From IMG/VR virus record IMGVR_UViG_3300009152_000271, positions 1-20,225 of that record: a stretch of 20,225 nucleotides of DNA. One strand, given 5' to 3'. Below, one piece after another: positions 5,359 to 16,278 of this stretch. Position 1 is the first letter of the stretch, and every line of letters starts with the position of its first letter. A model generated the notes under the pieces. It was not told the DNA's origin, searched no databases, and saw only the letters and a list, made by a program, of their open reading frames with translations. Position numbers and translations under genes: made by a program. This stretch comes from a virus.

Positions 5359-6243
5359 ATGGAAAATAGTGATGTAACCACAGCAGAAGCTACTCAAGAG
5401 GGAACGAGTTCTGAGTACGTGGATCTGCCGGATGCTTCCGATGAAGACATCTCCGTGTTCCTTGAGAACGCAGAGCGGTCGGAGTCAGAAGCCCCAGTAG
5501 AAACGCCGCAAGAGAACCCCGCACAACAACAAACTAAAGCTGAGCCTCCGAAGGAAGAGCCAGAGGTCGAGCAGGAGGCAATCTCCAAGCAAGACTTTGA
5601 AGCTTTGAAGCGGAAGCTCGAAGGACAGGAACTCCTAATCAAGCGTCGTACAAGCGAGATAGGGGAGATTAAGAGACAGCTCCAACAGTTCATACAGAAC
5701 ACAGCCCAGAACCTCGATGAGAAGTTCTACGAGTCACCGACTCAAGCCTTGCAACAAGCAAGACAACTTGAGATGGCTCAACAGAAACTCCAAGAGGCAG
5801 AGGCAGAGGAGCAGTCCCTTACGAACGCGCATCAGGCGCAAGTTCTATTAGCACATCATGTTGGCGGGGATATTGACCTTGAGGCTATCGGAGAGTCTTT
5901 ACTCTCAGACGGTATGCCCCAAGAGTTCGTACAGCAGTTCGTACGCAACCCTTATCAAGCCGCGCTACCAGAGACACTAATCCAACTTGCTAAGCGAGCA
6001 ACCGCTGAAAGACAGGTCCGGCAGATGCAGGACGCACTACAGCAGCTTGTTCCTTACACACAGAAGCTCTTGGAGGAGCGCAAGCAACTCCCTCAGCATG
6101 TGTTGAAGAATGTCAGTTCAGCTCTCCGTCAGTCCCCACAGGTAACTGGTTCTGCGGGTGGTACTGGACAGCTAGGTGGAAACCGAGCTGTTGATCCGTC
6201 TTTGATGAGCGATGCCGAGTTAGCGGAGTTCCTGAAAAGTTAA
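5359..6243 (+). CDS. Scaffolding-like head assembly protein
   Basis: The 294-residue protein has an acidic, low-complexity N-terminus (E, S, P and Q rich, to about residue 70). A long Q/E/K-rich coiled-coil region (about 75-160) follows, then a mixed helical part with repeated Q runs, and a Gly-rich linker before a short acidic end ELAEFLKS. Composition and position between portal and major capsid gene are those of phage scaffolding proteins, which guide coat assembly and then leave the head. No protease motif is seen. The ATG at 5359 follows the portal stop by 8 nt; an out-of-frame ATG at 5355 sits beside it. The binding site is weak (GGGTGA). Scaffold function is inferred from composition and gene order. 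Confidence 0.75.
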   Translation: MENSDVTTAEATQEGTSSEYVDLPDASDEDISVFLENAERSESEAPVETPQENPAQQQTKAEPPKEEPEVEQEAISKQDFEALKRKLEGQELLIKRRTSEIGEIKRQLQQFIQNTAQNLDEKFYESPTQALQQARQLEMAQQKLQEAEAEEQSLTNAHQAQVLLAHHVGGDIDLEAIGESLLSDGMPQEFVQQFVRNPYQAALPETLIQLAKRATAERQVRQMQDALQQLVPYTQKLLEERKQLPQHVLKNVSSALRQSPQVTGSAGGTGQLGGNRAVDPSLMSDAELAEFLKS

Positions 6244-7788: not shown

Positions 7789-8466
7789 ATGGCTGCATCT
7801 GACTACGACTTCAACGTAACCCGTAACGAGATTATCGAACGGGCTTATCGCATTATCGGGAAGTTTTCTCTTGGGGACGTTCTCTCCGCTGAGATGTACC
7901 AACAGGGCATTATCGCCCTGAACTCCATGATTAAGAGCTGGCAGGGTAAGCATGTGTTCCTTTGGACCATTAAGGAGTTCACCCAGACCCTTACCGTGGG
8001 ACAGGCTAGCTACTCCCTGGCTAGTACGGACCCAGCCGTCTACGCGATTGACCGGGCCTACCTCCGCTACGACAACATAGACCACCCTTGCGATGTGGCA
8101 TCCTACCGGCAGTACGTTGACATCCCCGACAAGACTAGCAAGGGCGACCCGACTCTCGTGGCGTTAAATGGGCAGATGAGCCCTACGCTGTATGTGTGGC
8201 CGGTTCCTCAGCAGACTAGAACGCTCTATTACACGGGCATAGTTAAGCTCAAAGACTTTGACACGGCGGCTGGTAACTCTGACTTCCCGGTACGGTACAT
8301 CGAGGCCATTACATTCGGACTAGCCCACAAGCTATCGTACGAGTACGGCCTTCCAATCCAACAGTCGAGAGAGCTTGAGCGACAGTTCCAAGCAGAATTT
8401 GGCGAAGCTAAGAGCGGAGAGCGCGAGAGGGCTGAATACGAGTTTTGCGAAGGAGCGTGTAAGTAA
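7789..8466 (+). CDS. Head-to-tail connector, P22 gp4-like
   Basis: The 225-residue protein shows the pattern of the P22 gp4 tail accessory family. An N-terminal helix TRNEIIERAYRIIGK is followed by ALNSMIKSWQGKHVFLWTIK and a strand region QTLTVGQASYSLA. A central SPTLYVWPVP follows, then a C-terminal helix with RYIEAITFGLAHKLSYEYGLP. In P22 this protein binds under the portal and starts neck assembly. It is longer than the P22 protein (166 residues), mainly in the middle, as is common in relatives. Its C-terminus is charged (E/R/K) with a pair of cysteines near the end. The ATG at 7789 is preceded by GAGG, and the stop overlaps the next start by 1 nt. Confidence 0.85.
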   Translation: MAASDYDFNVTRNEIIERAYRIIGKFSLGDVLSAEMYQQGIIALNSMIKSWQGKHVFLWTIKEFTQTLTVGQASYSLASTDPAVYAIDRAYLRYDNIDHPCDVASYRQYVDIPDKTSKGDPTLVALNGQMSPTLYVWPVPQQTRTLYYTGIVKLKDFDTAAGNSDFPVRYIEAITFGLAHKLSYEYGLPIQQSRELERQFQAEFGEAKSGERERAEYEFCEGACK

Positions 8467-10808
8467 TGGCAACGGCGGTACAGGTAGAATCCATCTGGAA
8501 CGGGCTCACTGACAACAGTGGGCAGCCATTAGCCGCAGGAAAGGTGTACACCTACGCCGCTGGAACCACTACGCCAATATCTCTTTTTACCTCTAGCGAT
8601 AAGAGTACCTCGGCAACCAACCCTCTCATCCTCGATGGCAACGGCAAGGCTCAGGTATGGGCAGATGGGCGGTATAAGTTCGTGGTTAAGACTGCGGCTG
8701 ATGTAACGCTCTATACTCTGGACAACCTTCTCTACGGATTCGACGATACGTCGGTCCTCCTTGGCGGTATCTCTACTGGCTCGGCCAATGCTCAGACGGT
8801 TAGTGTTCCGGCTACTGTAGAGAGCTACGTCAACGGTCAGCGAATTACTTTCATCGCTGGGTTTACAAATACTGGTGCTACAACCTTGCGGTTTAATGCA
8901 CTTTCAAGCGTCAACATCGTAAAGGGGCCTACCCCTAGCAGCCTTCAGGCAGGGGACTTGCTTGCCGGTCAGCTTTACAGCTGCACTTACTACGGCGGCT
9001 CTTTCTACCTTGAGAGTACTCCTACTCCGGCTGATGTGCAGCGGTCACGGTCGCAGGTTCTTAGTAGCGTCGGTGGTATCAATACCATTATTGGAGCCCT
9101 CACTCCTGCGCTCACCTCCTATGAGGCTGGGCAGGTCTTCCGTTTCAAAGCAGCTAACGCCAGCACAGCGGCAGTCACTCTCAACATCAACGGTCTTGGA
9201 GCCCAAGCCGTTCAGCGATACGGAGTCGCACTCGTCGGTGGCGAGATCCAGGCTAACGACATGGTTGAGGTCGTATATGACGGCACTCAGTTCCAGTTGG
9301 TTAATGCGGTTCCTAATCCGCTTTTTATTGATCGAACAAACAATGAGATTGGCATAGGGACCACCGCTCCCCTTACTCGACTTACCGTAGCTGGTACAGG
9401 GCAAAATGGAGCGCCATCAGATTCAGGGGACAAACTTGCAACTATCCGTGTTTCATCAACTGCTGGTGGTGGAAATGATGGCGGTCAAGTTGAGTTTGGT
9501 GCTGGATATGGCACATATACGCAAAGCTATTTCAGCGCCATTAAAGGACTGCTTAGCAACATAACCGGCAACACATTAGGTCATCTTGCCTTTTATACTC
9601 GAAATGGCACCTCAGACACTTCGCTAACAGAGCGGATGAGAATTAACGGTACTGGTGGTGCTGTCGGCATTGGCAATTCCGATCCTCAGTATGCTGCTGT
9701 AATTGGAAACGGCGTTGGACAAAAAATTGTAAGTATCTTTGGAGGGCTCTCAGGGGCAAATGAGGGCGCTGCGCTTTTCATCACTGGCACTACCGCCACT
9801 AATCATGCCGCTGGGTTTGGGCACTACTCAGCTATACTTGGCGGCGCTGCCGATGCTACTCCGACATTATACACAGGCGGAAATTTGCGATTTAATTCCA
9901 GCACTACGGTAGTCGGCGTATTAAACGGCACTGGGCTTTCGATTGGAACTGGAACTGTTGCGGCTTACCCGCTTGAGGTTCAGGCTAATGCAGGAAACGC
10001 CGTTGGGCTAAGCACTAAAGGTAGGGCCTCAGATAATATCGGCGTGGCCTTGTTTACAAATAACGCTGGAACCGAAACAGCAAGAATCCAGGCTGCCCCC
10101 ACATCGCTCTCTATTGCTAAAGATGGCAATAACCCGATTGCTCTCAGCACCAACGGCTCTGAGCGTGTGCGAGTCACTGGCACTGGGCTAGTTGGAATCG
10201 GAACCACTGGGCCATCGGAGGCGCTACACGTATATCGAGCCTCTGGAAATGTCGAAGTGCTTTCAGAGTCGAATTCTCTCGCTAATGGGGAAATGGCTTC
10301 GGTTCACGCGCTTGGTGGACCTAGAACCGCACGTATCATGGCCTATAAGCACTCGGGAATCGCAAACCCATGCGGGGCGCTCAATCTTGACCAGCAGGAC
10401 AACACGCCTACTTACGTTTGGGCTGACGACTCTACAGTTATGAGAGTATCCAGCACAATTACTCACATTGGAACTACAAGCGGAACGGTTATCGGTACGC
10501 AGACCTCCGATGCTAGGTTGAAGGATATTAGCGCAGACCCGTTCCCGTACGGATTGAGTGACGTTCTTGCCATTGAGCCAGTTGCCTTTACATTTACAAA
10601 CGATCCCGACCAGGTTGAGCGCATAGGATTTAGCGCCCAGCAGGTGCAGCCGATTGTCGCAGAGGCGGTATACGACACAAATGAGCAGATAGCCGGGGAG
10701 CCACAGGGCGCACCAACTAAGCTAGCGATGGACTACACGGCACTTGTTCCTGTTCTGGTTAAGGCAATTCAACAGCTTGAAGCGCGAGTAGCGGCATTGG
10801 AGGCGTAG
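8466..10808 (+). CDS. Tail fibre/spike with C-terminal Peptidase S74 chaperone domain
   Basis: The 780-residue protein begins with a head/tail-binding module seen in many podovirus fibres (GQPLAAGKVYTYAAGTTTP at 19-37, NPLILDGNGKAQVW at 52-65). Two copies of an 80-residue beta domain follow (about 119-187 and 218-286; shared GQ...F.A...T..TL..N and Y.G..F.L pattern). Next come repeated IGIGTT, VGIGTTGP-type beta turns typical of fibre shafts. The end (681-780) is a Peptidase S74 intramolecular chaperone: SDARLKDIS with the Ser-Asp cleavage site at 681-682, IGFSAQQVQPIVAEAV, then a coiled coil. This domain helps trimerisation and then cuts itself off. AGGAG precedes the ATG. Its place between the two neck genes is unusual. 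Confidence 0.88.
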   Translation: MATAVQVESIWNGLTDNSGQPLAAGKVYTYAAGTTTPISLFTSSDKSTSATNPLILDGNGKAQVWADGRYKFVVKTAADVTLYTLDNLLYGFDDTSVLLGGISTGSANAQTVSVPATVESYVNGQRITFIAGFTNTGATTLRFNALSSVNIVKGPTPSSLQAGDLLAGQLYSCTYYGGSFYLESTPTPADVQRSRSQVLSSVGGINTIIGALTPALTSYEAGQVFRFKAANASTAAVTLNINGLGAQAVQRYGVALVGGEIQANDMVEVVYDGTQFQLVNAVPNPLFIDRTNNEIGIGTTAPLTRLTVAGTGQNGAPSDSGDKLATIRVSSTAGGGNDGGQVEFGAGYGTYTQSYFSAIKGLLSNITGNTLGHLAFYTRNGTSDTSLTERMRINGTGGAVGIGNSDPQYAAVIGNGVGQKIVSIFGGLSGANEGAALFITGTTATNHAAGFGHYSAILGGAADATPTLYTGGNLRFNSSTTVVGVLNGTGLSIGTGTVAAYPLEVQANAGNAVGLSTKGRASDNIGVALFTNNAGTETARIQAAPTSLSIAKDGNNPIALSTNGSERVRVTGTGLVGIGTTGPSEALHVYRASGNVEVLSESNSLANGEMASVHALGGPRTARIMAYKHSGIANPCGALNLDQQDNTPTYVWADDSTVMRVSSTITHIGTTSGTVIGTQTSDARLKDISADPFPYGLSDVLAIEPVAFTFTNDPDQVERIGFSAQQVQPIVAEAVYDTNEQIAGEPQGAPTKLAMDYTALVPVLVKAIQQLEARVAALEA

Positions 10809-13413: not shown

Positions 13414-15168
13414 ATGGCAAACACCTTACAACTAAAGAGAAGTGCCGTCGCTGCTAAGGTACCGGCTACGGGAGACCTTGCGCTTGGCGAAGTAGCAATC
13501 AATACAAACGACGGCAAGGTTTACATAAAACAAGATAACGGCTCTCCTTCGGTTGTGCTGGTTGGCGGAGCAATATCCCAAACGGATAGAATTCTTGGCC
13601 GACAATCGGCGGGCGGAGGATCGGCAGAAGAGATTACCTGTACCGCAGCAGGAAGAGCATTAATTGATGATGCTGATGCCGCAGCGCAACGAACTACTCT
13701 CGGTCTTGGAACATTAGCGACGCAAAGTGGAACTTTTTCTGGTACCTCTAGCGGAACGAACACAGGCGATCAGAACCTGTTTTCAACGATTGCCGTTGCA
13801 GGTCAAAGCGACGTAGTTGCTGATACAACATCGGACACTCTGACTCTAGTAGCAGGAACAAACGTTACAATTACAACTAACGCTACTACAGACACTGTAA
13901 CGATTAATTCAACCGCCGCAGGAGTATCCGACGGAGATAAAGGCGACATTGTTGTTTCAGGATCAGGAACAGTTTGGGATTTAGACGCAATCCGGCTCAG
14001 CACTACGACTACACCGTTTCCTGGCTCCGTCACAGTAGACACGAAAGGTCGAGTGACCAGCATTTCATCCGCAGGATACACTCCGACAACTAATCGAATC
14101 CCCTTTGCTAGTAGCTCCACTACACTGACTGACAACGCTGGATTAACATTCACAGCCGCAAATGGATTAGTTGTAAATGGAACACAAGGTTCGGCTGTTG
14201 ATACGACACTATATACAGATAACTATGCGATGCTGTTTTTAGACGCATCCACCGATTGCCTTCATTTAGGCAGACCCGACAACACCCCAAGCTGGTCTAC
14301 GGCAGGTTCAATTGTATTTTGGAATACAATATATTGGGCCGATCCAGTAGGCGGTCCAACGGGTTCGGCTCTTTATTCAAATTCTTTTAATCCAGTTAGT
14401 GACACCAGTAGTTCAGCCTTTTCCGCTGGCTACTGGAGTATTTCAGATTCTAGTTTAGGTAGGTCCGCCTCATTGGACTTATCTTCGCAGCTTTTAAATT
14501 TGAGTTTCGACCAACCACTAAAATTGGGAAATAACTACATTAACTGGAGCGCAACTGAAGGAGCTTCTGGGTACGGATTTCGAAACAATAGCGGCGTGAT
14601 AGAAGCAAAAAGCTCAGGTGGTTCGTGGATACAAGTACCTCCGGACAATACAGCATACGCTAGTAGTTGGGACGGTGATGTGCGAGCACCCAGCAAAAAT
14701 GCAGTATATGACGAAATGCAGTTACGCAAAAAAGGTGGTTGCGAGGCACTTGCGTCTAATTTTACAACCACTTCCACAACCGGAGCATCGACCAATTTAA
14801 CTTTCGATATTGCTTCGAACGAAATATATCGGGTCCGAATTGCTGGAACGGCATCTAAAGCGACTTCTAACACAGGATTGCGATTGGCCATCTCTGCTCC
14901 AACGGGGTGTACAATCAAAGGCGTTCAATACGGTGGAGGAGCAACGCTAGCAGCTCCTTTAGTGCCGTCACTAATAACCGCCATAAACACGCTAGGAACT
15001 ACGTTTGCTACAGGAATTGGAGTTGAAGTTGGATTTGTTTTGGAGTTTGTCGTGCGAAATTCTTCGACCGCTGGAAGTATCACGTTGCAATGCGCCACGG
15101 TAACGTCTAATACCGCAACAATTTTCGCGAATACAATGATGAGTTGGGAGGTTTGTTCAAGCGTATGA
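13414..15168 (+). CDS. Large tail fibre / receptor-binding candidate
   Basis: The 584-residue protein starts MANTLQLKRSAVAAKVPATG, LALGEVAINTNDGKVYIKQD, the same kind of anchor as the preceding protein. A repetitive shaft follows (RILGRQSAGGGSAEEI, AAAQRTTLGLGTLATQSG, SGTSSGTNTGDQ). A middle part with W, Y and D residues, a linker ASSWDGDVRAPSKNAVYDEM (about 423-442) and a globular C-terminal domain complete it. The C-terminal domain has strands such as YRVRIAGTAS and AGSITLQCATVTS, like fibre tips. It is probably the receptor-binding tip carrier. Base composition is poorer in GC than the rest of the window. The ATG at 13414 has no Shine-Dalgarno sequence, only an A/T-rich leader, unlike its neighbours, which supports separate ancestry. 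Confidence 0.82.
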   Translation: MANTLQLKRSAVAAKVPATGDLALGEVAINTNDGKVYIKQDNGSPSVVLVGGAISQTDRILGRQSAGGGSAEEITCTAAGRALIDDADAAAQRTTLGLGTLATQSGTFSGTSSGTNTGDQNLFSTIAVAGQSDVVADTTSDTLTLVAGTNVTITTNATTDTVTINSTAAGVSDGDKGDIVVSGSGTVWDLDAIRLSTTTTPFPGSVTVDTKGRVTSISSAGYTPTTNRIPFASSSTTLTDNAGLTFTAANGLVVNGTQGSAVDTTLYTDNYAMLFLDASTDCLHLGRPDNTPSWSTAGSIVFWNTIYWADPVGGPTGSALYSNSFNPVSDTSSSAFSAGYWSISDSSLGRSASLDLSSQLLNLSFDQPLKLGNNYINWSATEGASGYGFRNNSGVIEAKSSGGSWIQVPPDNTAYASSWDGDVRAPSKNAVYDEMQLRKKGGCEALASNFTTTSTTGASTNLTFDIASNEIYRVRIAGTASKATSNTGLRLAISAPTGCTIKGVQYGGGATLAAPLVPSLITAINTLGTTFATGIGVEVGFVLEFVVRNSSTAGSITLQCATVTSNTATIFANTMMSWEVCSSV

Positions 15169-15461
15169 TGAAATTGACCGTCACTTTTGAATTACCGTTG
15201 ACTATAGAACGATTGCCGTATCTGGATACTCTGGCTAGGCATTACGGTTGGAGTGAAGAGAGGTATCCGGAATTGAGTGCTGGTGCGTATATCTGCTCAA
15301 AGGTAGCTGCGCCACAAACAAAAGAGTTGTTTCGAGGTTTAATAATTGACGGACTTCACGCCTATCTCGGACGGTCTCACGCAGCACAAATTGGAGAAAT
15401 AGCCACGCAGTTTCAGACAGACGCCGTTACTACTGCGGAGATAGTGGATGAGTCAGTTTAA
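15165..15461 (+). CDS. Small protein of unknown function downstream of fibre gene
   Basis: I do not recognise this 98-residue protein. It begins MMKLTVTFELPLTIERLPYLD, has a probable helix LDTLARHYGW, and an Ala/Gln-rich helical C-terminal half. It has no signal peptide or membrane segment. Its ATG overlaps the stop of the fibre gene (ATGA) and a GGAGG lies at 15147-15151, a little far (13 nt). TTG at 15144 would add seven residues and is less likely. Genes directly after fibre genes often encode fibre assembly chaperones, so that is one option; linkage to the following nuclease-like gene, which it overlaps by 14 nt, is another. Confidence 0.65.
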   Translation: MMKLTVTFELPLTIERLPYLDTLARHYGWSEERYPELSAGAYICSKVAAPQTKELFRGLIIDGLHAYLGRSHAAQIGEIATQFQTDAVTTAEIVDESV

Positions 15462-15963
15462 TCAGCCACGAGCACGATTACCCACTTTACCTGATCGTCC
15501 TATTACGTTTGCCAGTTATGCGGAGTATGCGGCGGGAATGTTGCTGGAGCGGTACATTGGCGATTATGAATTAAAAATGGGGCACACGTTTCAAGTGCCA
15601 ATAGGCCACAACAAGCAGTGCGACTTTTTAGTAAATGGCGTTTTTGTGGAGTTCCATCCCATTAACCTTCGCCACGAGTTTTCGGACCGCCAAGCGGCGA
15701 GGCAGTTTGGCGAAGCTATGCGGCACGTTGCTCATCCGTTTCGACAGCAAATAGTAAATGCCATAAAGAACGAATTTGCTGAAAAATACTATCAACGGCG
15801 TAAATTTTTAGTGTCGATGCACGGAGGCAAAGATTCAGAACTAATCGTTTGTCAGGATCCTATCGATCTATACCACTTGGTTATTAAACGGTTCGGAGTT
15901 GGGTATCCAAAACAAGCAAATTTCATAAATGAGTTTAATGCCTTAGCTCGGCAAAGGTTCTAG
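15448..15963 (+). CDS. PD-(D/E)XK nuclease-like protein of unknown role
   Basis: The 171-residue protein shows a layout like the PD-(D/E)XK nuclease fold: a first helix with E34 (AAGMLLERYI), D59 in a strand (QCDFLVNG), then E68 in VFVEFHPI, where the usual lysine is H70, and a later strand RRKFLVSMHG (117-126) followed by IDLYHLVIKRFG. In this fold these acidic residues bind metal and cut DNA. The match is by eye and the E-x-H variant is not canonical, so activity is uncertain. It overlaps the preceding 98-residue gene by 14 nt and has GGAG before the ATG. A nuclease in a fibre cassette is unexpected; a resolvase, an anti-host factor or a homing-type element are possibilities. Confidence 0.55.
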   Translation: MSQFNQPRARLPTLPDRPITFASYAEYAAGMLLERYIGDYELKMGHTFQVPIGHNKQCDFLVNGVFVEFHPINLRHEFSDRQAARQFGEAMRHVAHPFRQQIVNAIKNEFAEKYYQRRKFLVSMHGGKDSELIVCQDPIDLYHLVIKRFGVGYPKQANFINEFNALARQRF

Positions 15964-16030
15964 GATCGTACAGTTATTAACGCAGCCGCAGCCGTTATTA
16001 TCCTGATCTTATTAGATAGTCTTACATCCC

Positions 16031-16052
16031 CAATCGGCTCCCCGTAGGATTG
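16031..16052 (+). promoter_or_regulatory. Small hairpin overlapping the binding site of the next gene
   Basis: CAATC (16031-16035) pairs with GATTG (16048-16052). The right arm includes part of AGGA, the binding site of the ATG at 16057. The stem is only 5 bp with a large loop. The remaining 93-bp gap (15964-16056) holds one more weak inverted repeat (15978-15997) and nothing else I can support. Confidence 0.2.
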
Positions 16053-16056
16053 ACTT

Positions 16057-16278
16057 ATGGTGAAGTCCGATAACTACAAGCAGCTCATGGAGTCCCTGAA
16101 CCGGCTATTTGACGTTCTGCCAGACATGGAGGACGACGAAGCCGAGTCAGAGGGTAAGGCTCGTTCAATCACCATTGTGACCATAGGCAAGGGCCAAGGG
16201 ACCAAGATCCCTAAGGCTAACGCGCTCAAGAATCCAATCAAGAAAACCAAACAAGACGAGGAAGAAGACGATGGCTAA
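16057..16278 (+). CDS. Small charged protein, unknown
   Basis: This 73-residue protein is not recognised. It has an N-terminal helix with NYKQLMESLNRLFDVLPDM, a short acidic patch (EDDEAESE), a strand-like SITIVTIGKGQG, a lysine-rich stretch and an acidic end (DEEEDDG). A good AGGA binding site lies 7 nt before the ATG. The next gene overlaps its last 8 nt. It opens the run of probable internal virion genes and codon use is again like the main part of the window. It may be a small virion or chaperone protein; this is position only. Confidence 0.6.
   Translation: MVKSDNYKQLMESLNRLFDVLPDMEDDEAESEGKARSITIVTIGKGQGTKIPKANALKNPIKKTKQDEEEDDG

Follow-up and report, generated by a model that had tools for sequence, protein, structure and literature searches.

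The PD-(D/E)XK nucleases are defined by a fold in which the elements follow one another in the order αβββαβ, and the superfamily accepts a lysine that is replaced or has migrated (PMC1913061). Nuclease genes at the borders of exchanged segments are likewise a described pattern in phages (PMC10448857). Other systems that invite comparison with the present locus are T7 endonuclease I, a phage Holliday-junction resolvase, the EDxHD enzymes I-Bth0305I and Vsr, and the PDDEXK_15/Hjc-like and VRR_NUC nucleases.

The locus lies in an uncultivated virus record of 20,225 bases (IMGVR_UViG_3300009152_000271), the whole of which is referred to below as the window. Its structural genes include a P22-like portal, a phage_capsid_3 coat protein and an SU10-type adaptor. 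Behind the fibre gene lie two ORFs, A and B, which a first-pass annotation had read as a two-gene unit containing a PD-(D/E)XK-like nuclease and connected with the fibre. The analysis described here supports the predicted nuclease but not the unit.

RESULTS

ORF B is a conserved gene behind the fibre gene

Both ORFs were confirmed in the sequence at the coordinates given in Table 1. They overlap by 14 nt, and the ATG of A in turn shares nucleotides with the fibre gene's stop codon. The G+C content of the fibre gene, A and B is 44.6-47%, against 51-54% for most of the backbone, and other carriers of B fall at 44-46%. Judged from its sequence, B is a real gene, because dN/dS between relatives is 0.02-0.15, indicating strong purifying selection, because a Shine-Dalgarno-like GGAGATAG stands just 5' of it, and because D59, E68 and H70 show no variation among 40 non-identical homologues. 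These three residues and E34 occupy the positions assigned to them in the first-pass annotation.

Table 1. Features of the A-B locus and its surroundings in the window
Feature	Position	Strand	Description
Fibre/receptor-binding gene	13414..15168	+	directly 5' of A; context, outside the B cassette
ORF A	15165..15461	+	98 aa, c65 type, behind the fibre gene
5' arm of B cassette (CAGACGCCGTTACTACTGCGGAGATAGTGG...)	15417..15447	+	GGAGATAG ribosome-binding site of B and last codons of A (AVTTAEIV...)
ORF B	15448..15963	+	171 aa, predicted PD-(D/E)XK-fold nuclease; E26/E34, Q49, D59, E68-x-H70-P, E109, R118; by comparison, an optional mobile single-gene cassette
3' border of B cassette	15964..16056	+	match to other B cassettes lost 0-7 nt past the stop codon of B
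73-aa phage-backbone gene	16057..16278	+	context; 3' of the B cassette

Two further observations concern the window. A 157-aa ORF at 36-509 on the minus strand has an N-terminal Cys/His pattern like that of HNH domains, and a match of ORF A to FeoC was discarded (E 0.15).

Homologues of B were found in uncultivated phages only

Iterated searches recovered homologues of B in ~57 uncultivated viral contigs, the last viral scan adding no further contig. Relatives were found neither in 84,980 prokaryote genomes nor among 50,697 cultured-phage records. On this sampling the family appears to be phage-only and undescribed, with members so far from uncultivated phages alone. No match of weight was obtained for the family in Pfam, PHROGs, NCBIfam, PADLOC or PDB sequences, and no known nuclease family could be linked to B at the sequence level. 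Matches to phrog_1442 and PDC-S01 (E ~0.001-0.03, in few relatives only) were treated as chance-level leads; that to phrog_1442, a tail assembly chaperone family, was seen weakly in 4 of 23 relatives (best E 0.0015) and was absent from B of the window. Assignment to a fibre-assembly family, which would have spoken against the nuclease reading, was not obtained, the window protein having no PHROG or Pfam match.

Alignment of 40 non-identical homologues, down to ~30% identity, revealed residues invariant throughout: S23, E26, A28, T47, Q49, D59, F60, E68, H70, P71, E109, Y114 and R118. E34 is kept in all homologues except the distant member L052, which has Gln (39/40), and D80 in 16 of the 40. 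In the corresponding tree, the B genes of the window and of contigs L002-L006 group together as a single clade with good support (95/99). The myophage-type B gene of L016 falls, with moderate support, among podophage genes from the early-gene slot described below, a grouping that suggests transfer of B between phage types.

In L016, a phage with a T4-type baseplate, a 496-aa HD-domain protein is encoded just behind B (L016:8683-10173). Cluster c1 (44 loci; for example L041:1868-2686, minus strand) is represented in almost every phage type with B. Its product is a secreted-looking protein of ~270 aa without Pfam or PHROG match, encoded in what is presumed to be the lysis region.

The predicted fold and conserved residues of B point to a PD-(D/E)XK variant

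An earlier AlphaFold model built with 14 close homologues had a pLDDT of 58. Adding distant homologues raised the quality, and the AlphaFold2 model obtained with 23 homologues reached a pLDDT of 88.6 and a pTM of 0.79. The model comprises a helix (24-36), strands at 48-51, 57-62 and 65-69, helices within 81-126 and a strand at 132-135, and thus has the predicted order αβββαβ found in the PD-(D/E)XK fold. Helix 1 carries E26 and E34, strand 2 has D59 and strand 3 the E68-x-H70 motif, so that the carboxylates of the superfamily are all present: the helix Glu of motif I, the Asp of motif II and the Glu of motif III. The lysine of motif III is absent, its position being occupied by His in 40 of 40 homologues.

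Foldseek searches with the model gave nothing at E 0.001; the best PDB match, below that level of significance, was the catalytic domain of I-Bth0305I. Structural re-ranking with VIA-align gave a best Z of 5.9, with I-Bth0305I at 5.6 and Vsr at 5.0. The weak neighbours were Can2, R2 endonuclease, I-Bth0305I, Vsr, bunyavirus-type cap-snatching endonucleases and BglII, mostly PD-(D/E)XK nucleases, and every row with Z >4 is what we take to be a PD-(D/E)XK nuclease domain or a protein containing one. Z values of this size are no proof alone, and the fold is assigned because topology, motif and the enrichment of a single superfamily among the weak matches agree. In hhalign comparison with T7 endonuclease I, only the D...E-x-K hairpin aligned, in register with D59, E68 and H70 (P = 0.004). 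The Pfam model of that enzyme (Phage_endo_I) was matched by none of 23 members of the B family, and comparison of B by hhalign with 21 neighbour clusters, positives and controls included, revealed no similarity.

The proposal of a PD-(D/E)XK-like nuclease is therefore supported by the invariant acidic motif, the predicted topology and the structural neighbours, and the predicted fold retains the nuclease core, the loss of which would have counted against it. Because His takes the place of the motif III lysine, a substitution that the superfamily tolerates, B is probably best filed as a PD-(D/E)XK variant and not as a canonical member. The missing lysine also means that activity of the protein cannot be assumed.

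B is tied neither to A nor to the fibre

The occurrence of the two ORFs in relatives was compared, with relatives of the L002 phage type located by a coat-protein search (266 candidates, 80 retrieved). A lies behind a fibre gene without B in eight contigs (L059, L078, L079, L085, L089, L093, L094 and L099), and relatives of the c65 type of A lack B behind them in L058, L079, L093 and L094. B is situated exactly between A and gene c27 in L002-L004 and L006, whereas in seven phages closely related to the L002 type A is joined straight to c27, the stop codon of A overlapping the start of c27 (e.g. GCGTAATG). Similarly, A is followed by the lysis gene c44 in L059, and by B and then c44 in L005. 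Between the A types c59 and c65 there is little or no relationship. Different A proteins share the C-terminal tail TTAEIVD(E/G)S. The common tail is explained by the 5' arm of B, the leader holding its ribosome-binding site, which encodes the last codons of A.

Proximity to the fibre is also exceptional. B stands beside a fibre module only in the window, in L002-L006, in L016-L018 (phages with T4-type baseplates) and in L057, to which L020-L023 may be added by their downstream gene; most B loci are not fibre-adjacent. Taken together, these comparisons indicate that B is a constant partner of neither A nor the fibre. The two-gene unit fails since A and B occur apart in relatives. A fibre function for B is not supported, in view of A genes that follow fibres without B and of the location of most B genes in an early-gene slot beside resolvase-like nucleases. 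The suggestion of a virion-borne nuclease finds no support in the position or sequence of B and was rejected. A toxin-antitoxin pair was likewise considered, as was a fibre pair, and both were rejected given that A exists without B and B without A.

That A-B adjacency marks a functional pair for fibre assembly or host-range switching is very improbable and largely refuted, for the overlapping, adjacent genes of the window and L002-L005 and the weak tail-assembly-chaperone matches noted above are outweighed by the eight relatives with A alone, the majority of loci, in which B lacks A, and a shared tail on dissimilar A proteins that is B's own leader.

B behaves as a mobile single-gene cassette

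At the DNA level, the window and L002-L006 become homologous at 15417-15432, or further 5' in the case of L005, in which A is common too, and the homology ends 0-7 nt past the stop codon of B. At the left boundary, the 5' arm ACTGCGGAGATAGT(A/G)G holds the ribosome-binding site of B; it is common to the window and L002-L005, and in part to L006, while the remaining A sequence can differ. Positions 14990-15970 of the window are 92% identical to L005. On the right, homology to the B-free backbone relative L062 resumes at ~16028, ahead of the 73-aa gene, which in L062 is directly preceded by an unrelated 126-aa gene. A further 23 records from the coat-protein search, B-free at the fetched loci, had no B elsewhere in the record (23/23), some of these records exceeding 30 kb.

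Occupancy is not limited to one gene per contig. L005 carries two members of the family, at 459-974 and 5650-6180, with ~30% identity and in different slots, one being window-type and the other a distant resident. In L006, B is flanked by a 44-bp direct repeat of 84% identity (7941-7984 and 8520-8563). The left copy is a remnant of the 5' end of the gene that follows B. It meets the B cassette at a microhomology, ACTGC, and on this evidence is a recombination scar.

Because B-free and B-holding alleles occur both at the joint between A and the next gene and at the early-gene joint, B is, on comparative grounds, an optional single-gene cassette that is mobile between phages on its own. The element seen to move by these comparisons is B itself; that B also moves the fibre cassette, as proposed in the first-pass annotation, is conceivable.

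Within the fibre gene of the window, a separate stretch of 323 nt (13627-13949) is 96-97% identical to the fibres of podophages L003 and L004. Since the other structural genes of these phages are unrelated to those of the window, the match represents, by this comparison, a recent exchange of fibre sequence between phage types.

Most B genes occupy an early-gene slot beside resolvase-type nucleases

At 34 of 57 loci the gene immediately following B is of the PDDEXK_15/Hjc-like or VRR_NUC type, sometimes with a 4-nt overlap. In the lineage of the window, B is commoner between two early genes than beside A. The corresponding c9-c10 joint is found without B in L164 and L167, where the two genes touch directly, and in L156 and L165, where unrelated genes of ~125-135 aa are inserted. 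Such unrelated genes occupy the slot in other phages, and B may therefore lie near resolvase genes because the slot takes cargo in general. Directly 3' of B, c10 and c21, which are PDDEXK_15/Hjc-like and VRR_NUC genes, respectively, and unrelated, replace each other.

DISCUSSION

The most satisfactory explanation, and one that we consider probable, is that B is an accessory, stand-alone, metal-dependent nuclease of PD-(D/E)XK fold with an E-x-H site, carried as mobile cargo and most likely acting inside the cell. The carboxylates of E26/E34, D59 and E68 would serve as ligands of the metal ion or ions, and H70 would fill the role of the lysine, possibly together with R118, an invariant candidate helper on the following helix. 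The cassette, with its own ribosome-binding site, would travel between unrelated tailed phages and settle at gene joints, usually where the early operon ends, beside a resolvase-type nuclease gene, and, in the clade of the window, between A and the next gene. The comparisons show the gene, its conservation, its optional, mobile character and its predicted fold. We infer that B would cut DNA, branched or belonging to a competitor, most likely within the infected cell and not in the virion, and that the phage would gain by carrying it.

The main rival, which is unlikely, is a free-standing selfish homing endonuclease. In a mixed infection, B would cut B-free genomes near its own joint and be copied in by repair, dragging along flanking DNA such as the end of the fibre gene. 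The gene is phage-only and optional, its insertions at gene joints are precise, empty sites exist at two different joints (A-c27 and c9-c10), and it is spread over podophages and phages with T4-type baseplates. The scar in L006 resembles one-sided break repair, the best-scoring fold neighbours include I-Bth0305I and a phage homing endonuclease, and location at exchange borders has the precedent cited above. Against this, comparison by eye of the two kinds of empty site revealed no common recognition sequence. B is only 171 aa long and lacks the appended DNA-binding modules of I-Bth0305I (PMC3943268), the early slot also takes unrelated cargo, and B has long been retained in one slot under strong purifying selection.

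A dedicated resolvase of Holliday junctions or branched phage DNA, partnering the neighbouring PDDEXK_15 or VRR_NUC enzyme and RecT, is rather doubtful. The position of B immediately 5' of a resolvase-type gene at the majority of loci, the presence of RecT on contigs, and a size and motif spacing like those of T7 endonuclease I are consistent with such a role. However, L164 and L167 keep the resolvase gene without B, so that B is not essential, and the clade of the window has B far from any resolvase-type gene.

The canonical lysine is missing from every member, which could instead mark a catalytically dead fold, with the protein serving in DNA binding, regulation or inhibition. This is decidedly improbable, given that the invariance of D59, E68 and H70 in homologues of as little as ~30% identity is the pattern of a metal site in use, and that other families of the superfamily tolerate the change (PMC1913061).

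The preferred reading, that of an accessory intracellular nuclease, can be extended to a new class of compact phage nucleases, founded by B, with E-x-H on the PD-(D/E)XK fold. By cutting at gene joints, B would promote its own dissemination and also cause unrelated phages to exchange the modules beside it, among them fibre genes. We regard this extension as speculative and its truth as doubtful.

The family adds a well-delimited set of predicted phage nucleases in which the catalytic Lys of the superfamily is invariably replaced by His. Its empty, occupied, doubly occupied and scarred sites provide a natural series for the movement of a single accessory gene between modules, also beside receptor-binding genes. 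The locus further illustrates that overlap with a fibre-side gene need not mean membership of the fibre module.

Comparison with known systems

B shares with the PD-(D/E)XK superfamily the order αβββαβ (predicted), the helix Glu, the Asp of strand 2 and the E-x-(+) of strand 3. It differs in the invariant His for Lys, in the additional invariant T47/Q49 and H70-P71, and in having no sequence link to named families. T7 endonuclease I is similar in length (149 aa, against 171 aa for B) and has a catalytic hairpin in register, D/E/(K or H), but the alignment is confined to the motif (P = 0.004), and B is an optional mobile gene. I-Bth0305I and Vsr rank among the best of the weak fold neighbours (Z 5.6 and 5.0), and B, a phage gene, resembles a homing gene in being optional and mobile. 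Of the EDxHD set B has E, D and H, with D80 in only 16 of 40 homologues; its E-x-H lies on strand 3, and its 171 aa leave it without an appended DNA-binding region. With the PDDEXK_15/Hjc-like and VRR_NUC nucleases, B has in common the proposed superfamily, neighbouring genes and a possible role in DNA processing, whereas those nucleases have no profile similarity to B and are kept where B is absent. The nuclease genes described at exchange borders are of the T5orf172 and IPA-HNH types (PMC10448857), in contrast to the other fold predicted for B. Like them and like phage morons, B is an optional element of one gene that brings its own translation signal, lies at module borders and, by the comparisons made here, is mobile between unrelated phages.
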